DNA from: a virus
DNA length: 38,109 bases
Direction: 5' to 3' (one strand)
Virus record (IMG/VR): IMGVR_UViG_3300006874_000040
Coordinates: 1 to 38,109 of that record
Made by a program: the position numbers and the translations under genes. Below, piece after piece: positions 5,765 to 38,009 of the stretch. Under the pieces are notes generated by a model that was given only the letters and a program-made list of their open reading frames with translations, was not told the DNA's origin and ran no database searches. Within the stretch, counting starts at the first letter, position 1, and every line of letters begins with the position of its first letter.

Positions 5765-6508
5765 TTAACCTATCATGTCATGAACTGGCAAGCTGTAACT
5801 CGATATCATTTCGTCTTCTAGCTTACGAATCTCCTCCATAGATTCTTCCCATATTTTTTGACCGTTAAAGGTCAGGCCGCCTGGCATCTGAAGGCCTTCA
5901 AACTTTTTAAGATTTTCACCCCATTGACGTTTAAATAAAGCTGTAGTATATCTGAGTAACCACCGATCAGAATACATATCTGTATTAGCATCTGGATCTA
6001 TAACCTGATAAGAGTCTAAGATAATATAAGAATCAACCGGTATTTTATCCGTCCAACTAGTATCGATATAAACTCTGTTAGTATGTCTATTATAACGTAT
6101 AGGTTGCTTACCAACAAAAGTTTCTTCCAACATATTGATATGAGTCATTGCCATATGATATGGTACAACTGACGATTGTAAAAGATCATAAAGATCATTC
6201 AAATGTATCTGATATCTCACGTTAAATAAATTATTAACTGAATAAGTACCACCTAAAGTAAAGCAACCAGTAACACCGTAAATAGAATCAGGTACTGTTA
6301 AATAACCGTTTGATATATCAGCTGCTGTAGCTTGATGCTTATAAAAAACTCTTTCTGTGCCATCAAAATGATAGTCTCTATAATATTCTATTGCTTCATC
6401 TATTCTATCTTCTAACTGCTCATCGTCAGCATTTATATCGATAACAGGAGCTCCTAAATTACGAAGACAATATGATTTTAATTCTTCTCTTGTTGCTGGA
6501 AGTGCCAT
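5765..6508 (-). CDS. 13: Neck protein gp13
   Basis: Head-completion/neck protein that binds the portal vertex after packaging. It has 247 aa against 309 in T4, so it is a shorter form. N-terminal helix bundle features, TREELKSYCLRNLGAP and DRIDEAIEYYRDYHFDG, are diagnostic of the gp13 family, and YTTALFKRQWGENLKKFEG (about 189-207) is the conserved C-terminal helix. First gene of the neck-packaging-sheath block (13-14-15-16-nuclease-17-18). A GATAAATA late promoter octamer is about 40 bases upstream on the same strand. Confidence 0.92.
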   Translation of the reverse strand: MALPATREELKSYCLRNLGAPVIDINADDEQLEDRIDEAIEYYRDYHFDGTERVFYKHQATAADISNGYLTVPDSIYGVTGCFTLGGTYSVNNLFNVRYQIHLNDLYDLLQSSVVPYHMAMTHINMLEETFVGKQPIRYNRHTNRVYIDTSWTDKIPVDSYIILDSYQVIDPDANTDMYSDRWLLRYTTALFKRQWGENLKKFEGLQMPGGLTFNGQKIWEESMEEIRKLEDEMISSYSLPVHDMIG

Positions 6509-6546
6509 CTGTATCTACCCTATATAATAATGTATGTGGTTTACTA

Positions 6547-6554
6547 TATTTATC
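6547..6554 (-). promoter_or_regulatory. Late promoter octamer (NATAAATA) upstream of gp13
   Basis: Minus-strand GATAAATA located 39 bases before the gp13 ATG, in the short gap between gp13 and the oppositely oriented unknown gene at 6568. It matches the NATAAATA consensus used by T4-like phages and by several other group starts in this window. Confidence 0.55.
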
Positions 6555-6567
6555 ATCTGGAGTTATT

Positions 6568-7221
6568 ATGTTTAAAAAACCTTATATTGAAATAGTCTCC
6601 CCTAAACAATTTTGGGCTGATAATCTAGACGAAATTATTGTGCCTTGTATTAAAAATACTCCAAAAGAATATAAAGAAATAAAGCCTTGGCATGGATTAA
6701 ATGTTAAGCAGCGAATAGAACGACTATTTGAATCTCAAACACAAGCAATGGATAAGACCATAAAACAATGTGATGGCATTATTAAGTTATGGCAAAAAAG
6801 CTTTTTATTAAAATTTCCCTGTGACACTATTATTGATATAAAGAAAGATACAGGTTGGAGATACAGTACATCAAATAGTATTTTTAACATAGGCGGTCAC
6901 AGTAAACAGCAGTATGGTAAAATGATGCCTGATACATGGACGGTTAAATTTACATATAATTTATTTTTAAATAATAATATTGATATATTACCAATGTCAC
7001 CAATATATCATAAAAAACAGCCTTATGAAGTTTTGCCTGGGGTTATATTTCAGCGCCACCGCTCACCTTCAATATTAAATATTATAGCAGCGTTTCCAAA
7101 TACAACAGAGTCTTATCTCTTTAAAAAAGGAGACCCCTTATGTATATTATACACAGGGGCCCCAGTAGTATTAAGATCTAAATTTGATTCGACTGCAGAA
7201 CTAATAATGCCTACATTTTAA
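6568..7221 (+). CDS. Conserved hypothetical protein, reversed inside the late operon
   Basis: A 217-aa protein of unrecognised function. The frame is open further upstream to 6472, but the ATG at 6568 has a Shine-Dalgarno (CTGGAG, about 7 bases upstream) and avoids a long overlap with gp13. It has no signal peptide or membrane helix and is mixed alpha/beta, rich in Ile, Lys and Asn. The C-terminal third carries LPMSPIY, a Gly-Val-Ile-Phe strand and KKGDPLCILYTGAP, loosely reminiscent of DUF6065-type proteins, but this is a weak impression. It lies divergently from gp13 and converges with the DUF4376 gene with a 4-base overlap. It is the only plus-strand gene among 31 kb of minus-strand genes, and low G+C suggests late acquisition with the halogenase cassette. 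Confidence 0.75.
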   Translation: MFKKPYIEIVSPKQFWADNLDEIIVPCIKNTPKEYKEIKPWHGLNVKQRIERLFESQTQAMDKTIKQCDGIIKLWQKSFLLKFPCDTIIDIKKDTGWRYSTSNSIFNIGGHSKQQYGKMMPDTWTVKFTYNLFLNNNIDILPMSPIYHKKQPYEVLPGVIFQRHRSPSILNIIAAFPNTTESYLFKKGDPLCILYTGAPVVLRSKFDSTAELIMPTF

Positions 7222-27015: not shown

Positions 27016-27306
27016 TTACCCCGCGTTAACGTTACCTGATCCAGACGCAACAGCTGAGCCGCATGCAACTGGGTCGCCAATTCTTCCTACAGCTTTTCCA
27101 TTAGCTTTAACTGTACCACTACCACCAGACAAAGTAGATCCATGTGGCGGTGCTGGAGATGGAGAGCCGTGTGGTTCCCAAGCGTCACCTTCTCTATGTA
27201 CAGGCTTGCCGTTCACAAATACATTCCCGCTCCCTCCAGTAGAAGCTCTTGGCGGAAATGATCCGTGACCTGTACATTGATCTCCTTTTCTAGTTACTGG
27301 TGGCAT
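27016..27306 (-). CDS. PAAR-motif spike-tip protein (gp5.4-like)
   Basis: A 96-aa protein that should cap the gp5 beta-helix and sharpen the membrane-piercing needle. Features: start MPPVTRKGDQCTGHG, Gly/Pro-rich short beta repeats, and recurring Pro-Ala-Ala-Arg-type turns with potential zinc ligands (C11, H14 at the N-terminus, H in PVHREGD, H in PPHGS, and VACGS near the end). The open frame extends to 27411, but the ATG at 27306 has the Shine-Dalgarno GGGAG and gives the canonical PAAR N-terminus. The longer version would overlap the Ig-like gene by about 95 bases. It follows gp5 and the Ig-like gene. Confidence 0.88.
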   Translation of the reverse strand: MPPVTRKGDQCTGHGSFPPRASTGGSGNVFVNGKPVHREGDAWEPHGSPSPAPPHGSTLSGGSGTVKANGKAVGRIGDPVACGSAVASGSGNVNAG

Positions 27307-27316
27307 AATAATCTCC

Positions 27317-27943
27317 CTAAGGTGCGATATATCCTGGGTCTGTTGGTAAGTATCCTGTATTAGCAGATAAGACAGGATAGTTTTGTGCTTCAATGTATGT
27401 ATTAGCATCAACTAACACACCATCTACTTTAAATGAAAGACCATATTCTGCTGTATAGTCTCGTATAAACTGATCTCTATCTGAGTTATAATTATTTACT
27501 ACTTTTATAGCCATAGCAGTGTTCGCAGTAAAGTCACCATCTGGGTCATCATCAGGCTTAGCACTTACAGTAAAATTAACAACATATTCACCAGCTTTAG
27601 CTGACCCCCATGTACCAAAATTAGAACCATCTTTAGCTATTACAAAATCAGCTGGTTTTTCGTATTCTGTACCATCCCAGTCTACCCATGAATCTAATTC
27701 TTCTACTACACCTGATATTTGTCCCCCGGTAGATAAAGTTAAACCATTTGGCAGCTGCCCACCTGATACCCAAAACTCTAATGTAGCAGTATTACTAAAC
27801 GCAGCATGAGCACTCACATCATGTTCAAAGTTAAATAGCTCTCTTGGATTGACAGATGTTGGATCACCTACAAATTCATTTTCTAAATTTGCTGTAGGAA
27901 CAGACCATGTAATCGAATCAGTTGGTAAGTAAGGGTAAGGCAT
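27317..27943 (-). CDS. Ig-like (He_PIG type) virion protein
   Basis: A 208-aa protein of unknown role between gp5 and the PAAR protein. The centre has the putative-Ig signature FWVSGGQLPNGLTLS followed by GGQISGV (about residues 57-79) and a second strand group ending in YVVNFTVSAK. The C-terminus (YIEAQNYPVLSANTGYLPTD) is aromatic and may dock to another subunit. No signal peptide or membrane helix is visible. Its position within hub genes suggests an accessory hub or spike component. The domain type is reasonably clear, the role is inference. Confidence 0.7.
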   Translation of the reverse strand: MPYPYLPTDSITWSVPTANLENEFVGDPTSVNPRELFNFEHDVSAHAAFSNTATLEFWVSGGQLPNGLTLSTGGQISGVVEELDSWVDWDGTEYEKPADFVIAKDGSNFGTWGSAKAGEYVVNFTVSAKPDDDPDGDFTANTAMAIKVVNNYNSDRDQFIRDYTAEYGLSFKVDGVLVDANTYIEAQNYPVLSANTGYLPTDPGYIAP

Positions 27944-32280: not shown

Positions 32281-32871
32281 GTGGTAGCTTACGTATTTGA
32301 TAGATTGTTAACAAGAGGTGTGCAGGCTAATCAATTACCTGGTCGTACCCGTGCAGCTAGAGAATGGTATCGTAATGAAGCTGAGCAAATTACTGTTACC
32401 CCAACAAAGTTAATTCGTGAAAGCGGATCAAAAATTGTCAGAGGATATGAGATAGGTGAAATGATGTTATTTAATTATGACCCTAAGCTCAAACAACAAT
32501 TACCATACTATGATACATTTCCATTAGTTTTCCCAATCGAACCGAGAGACAACGGCTTCTTAGGGATAAACTTACATTATCTACCGTTACGTCAAAGAGC
32601 TAAACTAATGGACGCTTTATACTCTTTGAGAAGCAATAATAGATATGATGAGAAAACTAAACTCAATATAAGCTATAAAATTTTAAAAGCTTCTTCAAGA
32701 TATAAATTATTTAAGCCCTGTGTGAAACATTATTTAAATAAACAGATAAAATCAAGACGAATTAAGATAGACTCAGTAGAATGGGACATGGCATTATTTT
32801 TACCGCTGCAAAGATTTCAGAAAGCAAGCGCTGGCCGTGTTTATTCAGACAGTCTTAGGATGGCAAGTTAA
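32281..32871 (+). CDS. Conserved T4-like morphogenesis protein (possibly gp2-like)
   Basis: A 196-aa basic protein with a GTG start preceded by TTGAGGAC as ribosome binding site. The N-terminal third is a charged helix (TRAAREWYRNEAEQIT). A conserved-looking core follows: GEMMLFNYDPKLKQQLPYYD, FPLVFPIE, LGINLHYLPLRQRAKLMDAL (about 60-120) and the C-terminal EWDMALFLPLQRFQKA. I recognise this layout from marine T4-like phages. In T4 the gene next to gp4 is gene 2, whose product caps DNA ends against RecBCD, so a gp2 role is plausible from context. It overlaps the next gene by one base (TAATG). Confidence 0.72.
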   Translation: MVAYVFDRLLTRGVQANQLPGRTRAAREWYRNEAEQITVTPTKLIRESGSKIVRGYEIGEMMLFNYDPKLKQQLPYYDTFPLVFPIEPRDNGFLGINLHYLPLRQRAKLMDALYSLRSNNRYDEKTKLNISYKILKASSRYKLFKPCVKHYLNKQIKSRRIKIDSVEWDMALFLPLQRFQKASAGRVYSDSLRMAS

Positions 32872-33620
32872 TGGCATTTAGCGTATCAGAATTTAGTGGA
32901 CAAATTAACAATAGAGCGGTTGCAAAACAACATAGCTTTGATTCTCTTATTACGTTCCCAGCTCGAATGGCAATTCCGGCCGGCGGAGGAGCAGCTATTA
33001 GCGAATTACGTTTTAGAGTAGACTCAGCCGAGATACCAGGACGCTCTATTCAGACTATTCAAAATAAGCCTTATAATACTGGTCTTACTCACAAAATTGG
33101 TTATGATGTAACTTATCCAGAAGTTACAATGTCTATAACTTGTGGTTCTGATCTAGCAGAAAAGAGTTTATTCACCGCATGGCAAAGTTTAATTATAGGT
33201 AAACATAATACTAACCAACCATATCAAAGAAATATGCGTATCGGCTATTATAAAGATTATGTTTCAACTGTAGAAATAAATCAGTACAACGAAGCCGGGT
33301 CAGTCTCTCATAGTGTAACTTTAGTAGACGCATATCCTGTAACAGTTAACTCAATGCCTTTGAGCTGGGCAAGTGAAGAAGTTCATAGAGTTACTGTTCA
33401 ATTTGCGTATTTACATTTTATTGAAAATAATATACCTGCGTCGTCAAGTTCAACTGCTCCATTTATTAATGATCTTGGCCAGTCTGTGAGAAATGGTATA
33501 TTAGGATTTGCTACTAACTTAGCGCTAGGAGCAGTAAATAGATCAGTGAATAGAGCAACAAACGGAGCAGTAAGTATTGGCTCACAAGGCATTGGTATTA
33601 GAGTAGGTTTTGGTTTTTAA
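32871..33620 (+). CDS. 54: Tail-tube-fold protein, probable gp54 tube initiator
   Basis: A 249-aa protein with a tail-tube-like beta fold: FRVDSAEIPGRSIQTIQNKP at about 47-66, HKIGYDVTYPEVTMSITCGS and NMRIGYYKDYVSTVEINQYN, ending in VTVQFAYLHFIENN. This order is typical of gp19/gp54 proteins, and the last ~55 residues are a hydrophobic Gly/Ala/Asn tail that may insert into the baseplate. In T4 gp54 sits on gp48 and starts tube polymerisation. Because gp19 normally follows gp18, outside this window to the left, gp54 is the better reading here. It follows the 196-aa gene with a TAATG overlap and ends 21 bases before gp26. Confidence 0.65.
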   Translation: MAFSVSEFSGQINNRAVAKQHSFDSLITFPARMAIPAGGGAAISELRFRVDSAEIPGRSIQTIQNKPYNTGLTHKIGYDVTYPEVTMSITCGSDLAEKSLFTAWQSLIIGKHNTNQPYQRNMRIGYYKDYVSTVEINQYNEAGSVSHSVTLVDAYPVTVNSMPLSWASEEVHRVTVQFAYLHFIENNIPASSSSTAPFINDLGQSVRNGILGFATNLALGAVNRSVNRATNGAVSIGSQGIGIRVGFGF

Positions 33621-33641: not shown

Positions 33642-34355
33642 ATGGCTTTACCACAAATCGCGGCACCTGAATTTGAAGCGACAATTCCATCAACCGGTCA
33701 GAATATATTTTTCAGACCATTTTTAGTTAAAGAAGAGAAAGCTCTCTATATGGCAATGGAGGGTGGAGAACAAGGGGAAATAATTAACGCAGTTGTTAAT
33801 GTATTATCAGCTTGTATTAAAGATGATATTGATGTTAATACATTATCTTATTTTGATATTGAATATTTGTTTTTAAAGCTACGTGCTAAATCAGTAGGTG
33901 ATGTAGTTACTTTAAGATTTAGGCATGGCGGTGAAGATCCTGAATGCAGGCATGTTCAAGAAATTAACATAGACTTGGACAAAGTTGAATTAGAAAGATA
34001 TGATGATCATACTGATAAAGTTATGATTACTGAAGATGTTGGGGTAAAACTTAAATATCCTAATCTTGATTCAGCTAGACAATTAGGTGGTTTAAACACA
34101 AATAATTTAGATGACGTATTTACTTTTTTAACTGATTCTGTTGAGTATATTTTTGACAAAGAAACTGTATATGAAGATAATACAAAAAGTGATATTAAGG
34201 ACTGGTTAGAGAATTTAAATCAAAACCAATTTGAAAAAATTATGTCATTCTTTAATACTATGCCAAAGCTTGTTAAAGAACTTTCATATACTTGTGATGC
34301 ATGTGGAAAGGAAGAGAGTATTAAGATAGAAGGACTTCAAGGTTTTTTCGGTTAA
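33642..34355 (+). CDS. 26: Baseplate hub assembly protein gp26 (zero-frame product)
   Basis: A 237-aa protein of the T4 base-plate (gp26) family, in the place of the tail-assembly chaperone, directly before the tape measure. A good Shine-Dalgarno TGGAGG precedes ATG. The N-terminus MALPQIAAPEFEATIPSTGQ and FRPFLVKEEKALYMAMEG is the family signature. Potential zinc ligands are C102 and H104 (PECRH) and C218-x2-C221 (CDACGKE). The reading ends GFFG at TAA 34353-34355. The last codons contain a slippery heptamer, so this is likely the more abundant product of a frameshifting pair, as with lambda gpG. In T4, gp26 (208 aa) acts in hub assembly. Confidence 0.88.
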   Translation: MALPQIAAPEFEATIPSTGQNIFFRPFLVKEEKALYMAMEGGEQGEIINAVVNVLSACIKDDIDVNTLSYFDIEYLFLKLRAKSVGDVVTLRFRHGGEDPECRHVQEINIDLDKVELERYDDHTDKVMITEDVGVKLKYPNLDSARQLGGLNTNNLDDVFTFLTDSVEYIFDKETVYEDNTKSDIKDWLENLNQNQFEKIMSFFNTMPKLVKELSYTCDACGKEESIKIEGLQGFFG

Positions 34356-34531
34356 GCCTCGGTCATGATAGCCTGGCTAACCTTTATTATGTTAACTTTG
34401 CGTTAATGCAACACCACAAATATTCATTAACCGAGTTAGAAGAAATGATACCATTTGAAAGAGATATCTATCTAAATATGTTAATACAACACTTAGATCA
34501 AGAACGAGAACGGTTAGCAAAAAATGGCTGA
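33642..34531 (+). CDS. Predicted -1 frameshift product gp26-gp51 (chaperone fusion)
   Basis: Ribosomes slipping back one base on TTTTTTC (34343-34349) would continue through CGG at 34349 for 60 codons to TGA at 34529-34531, giving a 296-aa fusion instead of 237. The added residues begin RLSLGHDSLANLYYVNFALM and include HKYSLTELEEMIPFERDIYL and IQHLDQERERL, a compact helical piece of the type seen in C-terminal extensions of tail-assembly chaperones. There is no other gene in this 168-base stretch, and its only in-frame ATG (34406) has no ribosome binding site. The extension ends 8 bases inside the tape-measure gene. The reading frame is seen directly. Frameshifting and the gp51 equivalence are inferred from gene position and the chaperone precedent. 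Confidence 0.75.
34343..34382 (+). promoter_or_regulatory. Slippery heptamer TTTTTTC plus downstream stem-loop
   Basis: The heptamer reads T TTT TTC in the gp26 frame (34343, 34344-34346, 34347-34349), the canonical X XXY YYZ form, allowing both tRNAs to re-pair after a -1 slip. Directly downstream, GGTTAAGCC (34350-34358) can pair with GGCTAACC (34375-34382), eight pairs with one bulged A. The spacing to the stem is shorter than the usual 5-9 bases, so either the lower pairs open in the ribosome or the stem is not the stimulator. The zero-frame stop is one codon past the slip site. Confidence 0.72.
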
Positions 34532-37500
34532 GGCAACATTACCAAACGTCAACCCAGACGGTAAAAAAATAGTAGACGATACTGAGAAAGTAAAAGAGCA
34601 CGTCTCTGATATCTCTTCTCATACCAAAGAGTCTATTGTTAATGAAATAAATGGTCTGGAAAGATTAAAGACTATTGGTAATTTATTGAATGATATCCAA
34701 GCTTCTTTATCAGAAATGCTTATGTTTTTTCAAGGAAGAGCTGATATTGAAGATGCTAATCGTCGGTTTGATCAAGCACAAGATGCAGAAGACCGTGCTG
34801 AAAGACAGCGTGCTGGAGCAGGTAAATCTTCTGGCCAAGCAAAACCAGTAGCAATTGCTAAAACTGATTTACCAGGATTAGGCGGAATTTTAGGAATCCC
34901 CGCGCTTGCTGCTATTGTTACAAGTATATTTGGTTCAGATGAATATATGCGTATACCAGCATATCTAACTGCTCTTGGTCAATCGATTCGACTCTTTACT
35001 AAAAACTTAATGAATCTTCCAAGAAGATTTGCTGCATTAAGTACTTTATGGGAGAGAGGAACTAAAACTTTTTCAACGTTTATGGGTAGATTGTTTACAG
35101 GTGGGTTTTTTAAACCTCTCGTAACGTCTATGAGTCAAAGTATATCTGGTTTTATTAAAAGTTTTACTAACCAGTTTAGAGTTGCATTTGATCCTAAAGC
35201 TGGTGTATGGCGCAACTTAACTACTGGGCGCTTTATGCAAGCACCAAATGCATTTGTACAAACTATAGTTAGAATAAAAGATTGGTTCGTTAGCATTGGT
35301 AAAATGTTTGCTCCTGTAGGAAAATTATTTGCAAATATCACTAAAGGGGTAGGAGGCTTTTTAGCAGCGATCGGTAAATTTTTAGCTCCAGTTAAAAGCC
35401 TGGCTACTGGTATGCTTCGTTTACTAGGAAAGCTTGCTCTACCTATCACTCTAATATTTGCAGTTATAGATGGTATAACCGGCTTTGTTAAAGAATTTGC
35501 TCGAACAGGATCAGTACTAGAAGGTCTCAAAGGAGCGTTTACCGGTATTGTCGAAGGCTTTGTTAATACATTAATAGATTTTGTAGGTGGAGCTATATCT
35601 TGGCTTTTAAGTAAGTTGGGGTTAGATTCTCTTGCAGGATTTGTAGACCGGCTAACAGAAGATTTTACTAACTCTGTATCTCAAGTAGCTAACGGTGTTG
35701 GGGATTTTATAGTTGGTATATTCCAATTCGATGGTAAGAAAGTTCTCGCAGGACTCGGAGATGTGTTTCAAGGCACATTAGGTTTCTTTGCAAACATATT
35801 AGCTGCTCCTATCGATGCTGCAGTTGCATTTTTAAATGATATATTTGAATTTAGAGATGAAGATGCACCACCATTCAGTCTTGTGGATTTAGTTACAGAA
35901 AAGTTAGGACAGGTCTGGGAATGGTTAGGTGAATTGTTTGATCCTCAAGCAATATTAAGAGCACTTCTACCTGAAGTAGGCTCTGCTGCATCTAAGTTAG
36001 TACCTGATGCATTGTATAGACAAGCTGGAATTAATCCAGAAACTGGTGAAATAGAAACCGAACAGCAAAGAGTAACAAGAGAATCTCAGGCCACGATGGA
36101 TGATGCTCAAGAGCAAATTAATATGCTTGAAGAGTCTAGAAGTAGATTGACAGAAGGGCATGACCAAAATATTGATCGGATAGAGAAAACTATTGAACTT
36201 CTGAAACAGCAAAGAGAGACAGCTCCTGAGACTGGAGGGTTTTTTACTACAACAAAAAGTGATATAGATGAAAAGATTGCTGATAGGGAAAGGGAGTTAG
36301 AGGTTGTACGAGGTACCAGACAACAAGTAGTAAGTAACTTAGACGAGAGAATAGCTGAACAACAAAATATAAGAAGATCAGCTGCTAATAGAATAACTGG
36401 TTTCGGTGATGTACCTCAAGGTAACGGTCAACCAACTGTTAGAGTAATGACCAACGACGGGCTTAAAGATCTAACTGCAGAACAAGTTAGACAAGGCAGA
36501 GAAGACGGTACAATTAAACGTAGCTTAGCTAGTGAAGCACTTCTAGAGCTTGGAGACCAAAGACAGCAAAGTGAAGCAGCAGGTAGTACTCAAAGCACAC
36601 CATTTGATAGTTTACAAGCTGGTGATTATATTACTGAAGATATGTTAGAATATTTGCCTGAAGATGTTATGGGTGGTAATTTAGAGCCAGAGCATATAGA
36701 ATTCATGAAAAGAGAATTCATAAAACGAGTACCATCTGTAAGTGTTGGTAGTAGAGAACTATCTACAGCACAAATTATTAGTACGGTTGAGGATGCTCTT
36801 TCTAATGTACCAGGAGAAAAGAGAGGAATGGATCTCGGTACTACTGATACTTCTGTCAAAGCAGATGGTAAGAGAGGAATGGATCTCGGTACTACTGATA
36901 CTTCTGTCAAAGCAGATGGTAAGAGAGGAATGGAAATTCCCGGTCAAAGCCAAGCTGTACAAGTACCTTCAGAAGAAAGTTCTGATTCAATAATGGATTC
37001 TTTACGAGCTGCTATGCTTCAAAGAGAATCTAGTGGTGATTATACAGATTATAATGTATACGGTTACCAAGGCGGTTATCAATTTGGAGCTGCTGCTTTA
37101 GAAACAATTGGGTATCTAAAAGAAGGCGCTTCAAAGAGGGGTAACAGCGCAATGAAGAACCCAGAGAACTGGACAGGTAAAAACGGTATTAAAAGTCTTC
37201 AAGACTGGCTTGGTGCACCAATGGTGCAAGATATGGCGTTCAATGAACTAGCTGCCTTTAATGAGAAAGAGCTAAGACGTTTAGGTGTTATTGATGAAAA
37301 TACACCACCAGAACAAGTTGCTGGTTATCTTGCTGCTGCTCATTTATTAGGACCAGGCGGGGTAGCAGAGCAAGGCCTTGGTGGTAAAGATGCTTTCGGG
37401 ACTTCAGGTCAAGAATATTATGATCTCGGTGTTGCAGCTGCAAGCGGGGCCCAACCTAGTGCAGACTCTGCTCCGATGCGAATTCGTATTACAGAAGGTA

Positions 37501-38009
37501 CTGAAATTGCACCTCCAGCTGCTGCACCTAGCGCGACTGCTGCGCAAGACAGTACATTTAAATTAGCCGGTATGGACTTTTCTGGTCAGATGGGCTTTAC
37601 TGAAATGTATGATAAGTTTTATGGTGGTGATGGTAATTTGTTTAGTAGTGAAGGTCTTTTTTCTAGAAACCCTCTTTCAGGAAAATCTTTTGAAGAGGCG
37701 TTTGCGTTAACTACAGGACGTAGCATTCAAGAAGTGGATGCCGCTAAAGAAGAAATATACAGACGATATCAAGGCCCTGATGACTTTAGTTTAATGGGCA
37801 AAGCTGTAAATAACGGTTCTACATCTGTTGCAGCTGCAAGAGAGGATAGAATGGGCGGCAGTGCTGCAGTTGTATCAGCACCAACAGATAATAGTACAAA
37901 CGTAACTAATATATCTAATCAGACACATGTCAATTCTGCCAGCCCGAGAGCAACTGAACCTACTATAATGTCTACAATCAATTGTGGATATGGAACTTCT
38001 TTCGGATAA
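34524..38009 (+). CDS. 29: gp29-type tape measure protein with lytic-transglycosylase-like domain
   Basis: A 1161-aa protein directly after the chaperone gene, the position of tape measures. Residues 15-100 are charged helices. Hydrophobic helices lie at about 117-137, 298-323 and 345-370. A long coiled coil runs at about 512-620 and a 17-residue tandem repeat at about 766-800. From about 825 to 960 is a probable lysozyme/transglycosylase domain: MLQRESSGDY with catalytic Glu candidate E835, YQGGYQFGAAAL, a NWTGKNGI segment and AHLLGPGGVAEQGL. The Ser/Asn-rich tail ends NCGYGTSFG. T4 gp29 is only 590 aa, so this is twice as long. It would set tail length and could deliver muralytic activity, fitting the gp5 here that lacks lysozyme. 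Its start overlaps the predicted frameshift extension by 8 bases. Confidence 0.82.
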   Translation: MAEATLPNVNPDGKKIVDDTEKVKEHVSDISSHTKESIVNEINGLERLKTIGNLLNDIQASLSEMLMFFQGRADIEDANRRFDQAQDAEDRAERQRAGAGKSSGQAKPVAIAKTDLPGLGGILGIPALAAIVTSIFGSDEYMRIPAYLTALGQSIRLFTKNLMNLPRRFAALSTLWERGTKTFSTFMGRLFTGGFFKPLVTSMSQSISGFIKSFTNQFRVAFDPKAGVWRNLTTGRFMQAPNAFVQTIVRIKDWFVSIGKMFAPVGKLFANITKGVGGFLAAIGKFLAPVKSLATGMLRLLGKLALPITLIFAVIDGITGFVKEFARTGSVLEGLKGAFTGIVEGFVNTLIDFVGGAISWLLSKLGLDSLAGFVDRLTEDFTNSVSQVANGVGDFIVGIFQFDGKKVLAGLGDVFQGTLGFFANILAAPIDAAVAFLNDIFEFRDEDAPPFSLVDLVTEKLGQVWEWLGELFDPQAILRALLPEVGSAASKLVPDALYRQAGINPETGEIETEQQRVTRESQATMDDAQEQINMLEESRSRLTEGHDQNIDRIEKTIELLKQQRETAPETGGFFTTTKSDIDEKIADRERELEVVRGTRQQVVSNLDERIAEQQNIRRSAANRITGFGDVPQGNGQPTVRVMTNDGLKDLTAEQVRQGREDGTIKRSLASEALLELGDQRQQSEAAGSTQSTPFDSLQAGDYITEDMLEYLPEDVMGGNLEPEHIEFMKREFIKRVPSVSVGSRELSTAQIISTVEDALSNVPGEKRGMDLGTTDTSVKADGKRGMDLGTTDTSVKADGKRGMEIPGQSQAVQVPSEESSDSIMDSLRAAMLQRESSGDYTDYNVYGYQGGYQFGAAALETIGYLKEGASKRGNSAMKNPENWTGKNGIKSLQDWLGAPMVQDMAFNELAAFNEKELRRLGVIDENTPPEQVAGYLAAAHLLGPGGVAEQGLGGKDAFGTSGQEYYDLGVAAASGAQPSADSAPMRIRITEGTEIAPPAAAPSATAAQDSTFKLAGMDFSGQMGFTEMYDKFYGGDGNLFSSEGLFSRNPLSGKSFEEAFALTTGRSIQEVDAAKEEIYRRYQGPDDFSLMGKAVNNGSTSVAAAREDRMGGSAAVVSAPTDNSTNVTNISNQTHVNSASPRATEPTIMSTINCGYGTSFG
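36819..36933 (+). repeat. 51-bp tandem repeat inside the tape measure gene
   Basis: Two identical 51-base units (36819-36869 and 36870-36920) and a partial third (to about 36933). Each encodes the 17 residues KRGMDLGTTDTSVKADG. The copies are identical at DNA level, which indicates a recent duplication. It keeps the reading frame and lies in a flexible linker before the lytic domain. Confidence 0.92.

Follow-up and report, generated by a model that had tools for sequence, protein, structure and literature searches.

A conserved slippery site and a gp51-type -1 extension of gp26 point to a frameshifted tail assembly chaperone gene in a T4-related phage

Judged from its sequence, the gp26 locus described here is almost certainly the tail assembly chaperone (TAC) gene of a T4-related phage, in which a short product, TAC-N, and a long product, TAC-NC, would be made as a pair through -1 frameshifting. 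The locus lies in IMG/VR record IMGVR_UViG_3300006874_000040, of which the whole stretch from position 1 to 38,109 (38,109 nucleotides) was analysed and is called the window. The TAC-N/TAC-NC reading is preferred because the slippery heptamer is conserved, the -1 frame behind it is constrained, the first conserved Met of that frame lacks a Shine-Dalgarno (SD) sequence, and T4 gp51 has the layout of the corresponding fusion. The initial annotation had proposed that gp26 and gp51 are the T4-like chaperone pair, linked in this phage by frameshifting, and this proposal is supported by a heptamer kept in 135 of 135 relatives and a pN/pS of 0.24 in the -1 frame.

All parts of the locus are on the plus strand. 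Gene gp26 (33642-34355), the source of TAC-N, encodes 237 residues in the 0 frame and matches PF12322 (E 3.8e-61) and phrog_150 (E 1.2e-63). The tail tube protein gene (32871-33620; phrog_45, E 1.2e-28, and PF23849, E 1.3e-9) is immediately upstream, and the gene of a putative tape measure protein of 1161 residues (34524-38009), recognized by phrog_1535 (E 3.7e-7) and weaker tape-measure families, is downstream. The resulting order of tube, gp26, extension and tape measure is the position expected of a TAC gene.

The 3' end of gp26 reads GAAGGA CTTCAAGG T TTT TTC GGT TAA. It contains an SD-like GAAGGA (34329-34334), the proposed frameshift stimulator, 8 nt upstream of the slippery heptamer T_TTT_TTC (34343-34349). 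The codon before the TTT TTC of the heptamer is GGT, and a single sense codon, also GGT, separates the heptamer from the TAA stop that ends TAC-N (34353-34355); the initial description, which put the heptamer two codons ahead of the stop, holds when TTC is included in the count. The -1 frame, read from 34343, is open for 62 codons, 60 of them past the two Phe codons (FF), up to a TGA at 34529-34531, which overlaps the tape-measure gene by sitting 8 bases into it (ATG at 34524). The 60-codon open frame ending just inside that gene, as described initially, is thus confirmed, and the long product would have 296 residues (234 + 62). The peptide of this gp51-type extension, TAC-C (34343-34531), has a match to phrog_634, the gp51 family annotated as baseplate hub assembly catalyst (E 3.2e-25), which covers residues 2-59 and starts at the slip site. 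A tblastn search with the extension matched 565 phage records; in 555 the match spanned at least 80% of the query.

Some other features of the window were observed. The tape-measure gene has a 51-bp tandem repeat (36819-36934, 2.3 copies, 100% matches), and residues 820-978 of its product match phrog_27932, baseplate hub subunit and tail lysozyme (E 5.2e-37). An ORF with a PAAR motif (27016-27411, minus strand) begins with TTG and overlaps the same-strand ORF at 27317-27943, and its true start may differ. The ORF at 6472-7221 (phrog_7084, function unknown) is a lone plus-strand ORF amid minus-strand genes.

The heptamer by itself is unremarkable, since the window is T-rich and contains 15 copies on both strands compared with 13.7 expected. 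In the 28 window genes examined there are 54 in-frame X_XXY_YYZ sites, ten of which are T_TTT_TTN, and among these ten only the site at 34343 in gp26 lies within 12 nt of a gene end. Gene gp26 has a second in-frame site, T_TTT_TTA at 34124-34130, distant from the stop. An open run of 60 codons in one given frame was found in 31 of 5000 base shuffles.

Relatives were collected from IMG/VR as seven loci fetched with the gp26 of the window as query, the best 80 of at least 600 candidate stretches from a scan with the extension alignment, and the best 80 of at least 600 from a scan with a gp26-alone alignment, which is blind to the slip site. Six phage-collection records (T4 and five named phages) were added. 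Among the 173 sources, window included, both parts were present in 171, the exceptions being T4, whose gp26 is on the other strand, and L141, which ends just past a normal slip site. The extension is in the -1 frame in 170 of them and in frame 0 in one (L038). All of these 170 loci, a set that excludes L008 (T4), L038 and L141, have an in-frame T_TTT_TT[C/T/A]. After the removal of 35 near-duplicates, it is found in 135 of 135 non-redundant relatives, with C as the last base in 88, T in 40 and A in 7. The heptamer is also present in 80/80 loci of the gp26-alone scan (the best 80 of at least 600 stretches), and its conservation holds at 61 clusters (70% identity) and at 12 clusters (60% identity). 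The codon 5' of it varies among GGT, GAT, GCT, TCT, AGT and AAT, which encode five different residues. Other FF dipeptides in the same genes form the heptamer in only 10 of 143 cases. The heptamer is therefore more than a chance occurrence, and relatives without it, which the initial annotation would have counted against frameshifting, were not met in the panel.

Selection was estimated from 158 pairs among 89 of 126 loci; nine of the 135 loci were left out, one as too short and eight for failing a filter on one conserved extension position, which may tilt the sample slightly toward conserved loci. Between the slip site and the conserved Met, pN/pS of the -1 frame is 0.243 (bootstrap 0.223-0.271) versus 1.26 for the 0 frame and 1.66 for the +1 frame, and past the Met the -1 frame has a pN/pS of 0.19. 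Stops are absent from the -1 frame in 126/126 loci, whereas the other two frames average 6.4 and 5.3. An unconstrained -1 frame, also regarded at first as a sign against frameshifting, is thus not what the stretch before the first Met displays.

In several public annotations, those of P-TIM40 and Mosig among them, gp51 is a small protein of its own whose translation begins at the conserved Met of the -1 frame (34406 in the window), and this Met is indeed present in 114 of 126 loci. However, an SD of at most -4 kcal/mol stands before it in 1/115 loci, compared with 79% of 131 gp26 starts and 6% of 135 random positions. The codons 5' of the Met are themselves under purifying selection (the 0.243 above), and T4-like gp51 is fused in frame to upstream sequence and has Val, Ile or Leu at the Met position in six aligned rows. 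A separate start at the Met, very improbable on these grounds, was rejected. A gp51 translated from a ribosome binding site of its own, named in the initial annotation as a contrary finding, is likewise unsupported in the lineage of the window; T4-type phages do have one, but theirs is a whole gp26-like protein plus the extension. The public records of S-WAM1 (L010), DSL-LC03 (L013), AsFcp_2 (L177) and SenM-2 (L183) leave the extension unannotated, and other records begin it at differing codons.

Termination followed by reinitiation, with ribosomes restarting in the -1 frame at an overlapping TAATG or TGATG after gp26, is slightly less probable still. Such overlaps exist in KVP40, Marzo, RHph_I9, phiM7, D493, GR28A, PhiW-14 and phiD3 and in 9/135 panel loci (TAATG in 6, TGATG in 3), and at least one ATG, GTG or TTG lies between the slip site and the conserved Met in 78/135 loci. 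However, 57/135 loci have no such codon there, and reinitiation leaves the invariant heptamer unexplained. The window itself reads TAA GCC at the gp26 stop, and its -1 frame has no ATG, GTG or TTG before 34406. Stop-start reinitiation was rejected for this lineage. A sequencing error or a disabled gene, formerly in one frame, has practically no chance of being correct and is refuted by conservation, because 170 of the 171 sources that hold both parts share the -1 arrangement, as do named phages from several families, even though one IMG/VR contig (L038) does have a frame break, located earlier in gp26, perhaps as an assembly error, and followed by a normal slip site. Given the purifying selection on the -1 frame, the SD missing at nearly every conserved Met and the start codons absent before it in 57 loci, the simplest reading is that the extension prolongs gp26, beginning at the slip site.

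An SD-like element accompanies the slip site across the relatives. In the 135 relatives, pairing with the anti-SD at some 12 nt 5' of the heptamer has a mean energy of about -6.4 kcal/mol, and the best pairing before gp26 is comparable at -6.1 kcal/mol, though measured slightly differently. The element coincides with a conserved Glu-Gly. Its Glu codon is GAG in 61 of 90 cases versus 749 of 3025 elsewhere (Fisher p 4e-17), and when the 61 clusters are counted, in 30 of 42 (p 5e-10) versus 14 of 50 for other Glu before Gly. Anti-SD pairing is stronger in the real sequences (-6.49) than in synonymous versions (-4.87). The Gly codon shows a smaller bias, which misses significance once the loci are clustered at 70% (p 0.067), and the GAAGGA of the window uses GAA, the commoner Glu codon. 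These codon choices suggest that the SD-like element is under selection, and it may stimulate frameshifting. E. coli dnaX has an internal SD, which the element near the heptamer resembles. A limited literature search found no paper on internal SDs at tail frameshifts, and one may still have been published.

Downstream of the heptamer, predicted folds of the relatives are more stable than those of synonymous controls, with a mean z of -1.53 for +15 to +99 in 57 clusters, versus -0.2 for +75 to +150, and some relatives, e.g. L010, L029 and L031, have a clear stem about 5 nt past the heptamer. RNAalifold on 126 ungapped sequences returned no consensus structure in the downstream region, and a search of 34200-34700 against Rfam at E 1 was negative. 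The stem-loop put forward in the initial annotation (34350-34382) exists as a predicted fold in the window (-12.6 kcal/mol, z -1.8, with 10 of 200 shuffles equally good). It begins immediately 3' of the heptamer, with no spacer between them, and the closest distinct relative, L003, has no such predicted fold, so it is not counted as functional; with that z and without an RNAalifold consensus, it was dropped as a conserved part.

Taken together, the following course of translation is proposed. Most ribosomes would read gp26 to its TAA and release TAC-N of 237 residues, while a minority would pause at T_TTT_TTC, with the SD-like GAAGGA just 5' of it. Both Phe tRNAs would then slip back by one base, from TTT TTC to TTT TTT, and translation would go on for 60 codons to give TAC-NC of 296 residues, with the shifted ribosomes terminating just inside the tape-measure gene. 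By analogy with lambda G/GT, TAC-N may form a coat around the tape measure protein, and TAC-NC may recruit tail tube subunits through its C-terminal extension. T4 would make the same two products from separate genes, 26 for the short and 51 for the long. That ribosomes slip here, at what rate, and with what help from the stimulator is what we infer from these features, and the chaperone roles of both products are likewise presumed from lambda.

The heptamer is not universal, because the Ackermannviridae and near relatives keep the -1 extension and have T_TTT_TTN in 0/11 cases, some of which are near-copies and not independent. The phages inspected are L174, L180, L181, L183, L184, L187, L199, L200, L203, L204 and L207, with L187, L199 and L200 being the three inspected among 16 loci of one retrieved set. 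At the slip position they have G_ATT_TTC, A_ATT_TTC, A_CTT_TTC, G_GTT_TTC, G_GTT_TTT or G_GCT_TTC, of which one, G_GTT_TTC, is identical to the site of T7 gene 10. The initial suggestion that relatives be checked for a conserved slippery site is therefore borne out throughout the panel but not in these distant phages, which have lost it. Outside them, T_TTT_TTN is present in 10/10 other representatives (KVP40, Marzo, RHph_I9, AsFcp_2, phiM7, Astolliot, OLIVR5, Ci1, PhiW-14 and SRB7757), ending in G in RHph_I9.

Both parts of the window pair have family counterparts in T4, through PF12322 for gp26 and phrog_634 for the extension in T4 gp51. In T4 gp51, residues 1-201 match the gp26 family (E 3.9e-52) and residues 147-246 the extension family, phrog_634 (E 1.2e-23). 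The alignment of T4-like gp51 proteins continues from the gp26 domain across the FF junction into the -1 extension. By these matches, T4 gp51 joins a gp26-like domain and the extension in one reading frame. In 19 records, gp26-family genes number two in T4 and Acinetobacter phage Melin and one in the other 17; the extension family was detected in 16, and the three misses (phiA8-29, Marzo and D493) have an extension-like -1 frame by eye only. In a 35-row tree, gp51 forms one group (100/97), a branch with support 93/96, short of the starred level, has T4-type gp26 and gp51 on the same side, and the gp26 of RB43, a long branch, is placed beside gp51 (90/85); the root is a midpoint only. The tree fits a duplication in the T4 line, and the wording of the initial annotation that the pair is "still linked" in the present lineage agrees with the grouping of T4-type gp26 and gp51.

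A structure was predicted for the gp26 of the window with a mean pLDDT of 90.8, and Foldseek gave no match to the PDB at E 0.001. When residues 1-95 were compared by VIA-align, whose own note calls Z of 7 to 8 common, the top rows were 3fgx (Z 8.0, rmsd 3.7, 85 residues), the HK97 tail assembly chaperone 2ob9 (Z 7.5, rmsd 3.5, 83 residues), 3klu (Z 7.2, rmsd 3.9, 85 residues) and 5ir0 (Z 5.6, rmsd 4.1, 81 residues), and the next row had Z 2.5. Only 2ob9 is named a TAC among the four, and 3fgx and 3klu we take to be TAC-type prophage proteins too. Going by the Z gap to the next row, the model leans toward a TAC-like N-terminal domain. The model of a T4-like gp51 (pLDDT 89.4) has a helix across the junction and three more after it, and a second-look fold comparison listed no chaperone for it (best Z 4.7). 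Sequence searches of solved structures gave nothing below E 0.1 for the gp26 of the window and nothing below E 1 for T4 gp51.

There is about an even chance that the T4-like superfamily forms a series in which one chaperone pair is decoded in successive ways. In marine and many other groups a selected GARGG would act with T_TTT_TTN, in some with a stem about 5 nt 3'; in Ackermannviridae-like phages a degenerate N_NNT_TT[C/T] would serve; and in T4-type phages duplication and in-frame fusion would replace the slip. If this series is true, its new element would be an SD, comparable to that of dnaX, which stimulates frameshifting in a tail chaperone gene. The locus also lends itself to studying how frameshifting is stimulated and how gene duplication later takes its place. 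The present results would also correct a recurring annotation error in marine T4-like phages, whose gp51 is given as a separate small gene or omitted, and support the reading of the T4 hub assembly proteins gp26 and gp51 as a tape-measure chaperone pair.

The abstract of the 2022 study by Vladimirov, Gautam and Davidson reportedly covers T4 genes 26 and 51 and frameshifting in several other T4-like groups. Going by its title and by PMC10885494, which cites it, that study identified the TAC genes of T4-like phages and the solution by a short and a fusion gene; PMC10885494 states that some T4-like phages have these two genes in place of frameshifting. The locus of the window appears to be an instance of this TAC type. 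The frameshifted-TAC reading is therefore correct but not new, since the kind is already described. The initial annotation, unaware of the arrangement as standard for T4-type genes, was right in its inference, which had been published before (Vladimirov et al. 2022). The searched literature gave no detailed description of this locus type, and the selected SD-like element and the Ackermannviridae variant were not met in it. What is added to the known kind is the selected SD-like element, the extra downstream folding in relatives and the loss of the heptamer in Ackermannviridae-like phages.

The lambda tail chaperones gpG and gpGT were reportedly described by Levin in 1993 and by Xu, Hendrix and Duda in 2004. 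They resemble the window pair in having a short and a long product, a -1 slip shortly before the first gene ends and a place between tube and tape measure. In contrast, the lambda heptamer is G_GGA_AAG rather than T_TTT_TTC, and the gp26 of the window is larger than its lambda counterpart, with a long region past the first 95 residues. The Vandenendeviridae TAC, known from phage Adele with a GTTTTT motif, is like the window in its conserved -1 frame and in a T-rich slip motif 5' of the tape measure, as described in PMC12846349, but belongs to different phage families and has a different motif. The T4 pair itself shares the domain layout, in which gp26 is short and gp51 consists of a gp26-like domain and the extension. 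In PMC3004832, T4 gp26 and gp51 are listed as hub assembly chaperones, with evidence for gp26 in the hub also cited, and gp51 is described as needed for assembly and absent from the final particle. Cyanophage gp51 is about 20% of the length of other gp51 proteins and alike at the C-terminus, according to PMC3037559, and the KVP40 database record remarks on the same C-terminal likeness. T4 gp26 has no heptamer (its 3' end is GAG TTC TTT GAG TTA CTA TAA), and in RB43 the gp51 gene and a gp26-type gene are arranged in tandem on the same strand. Genes 26 and 51 of T4 are separate and divergent, whereas the window has a single locus that is very probably frameshifted.
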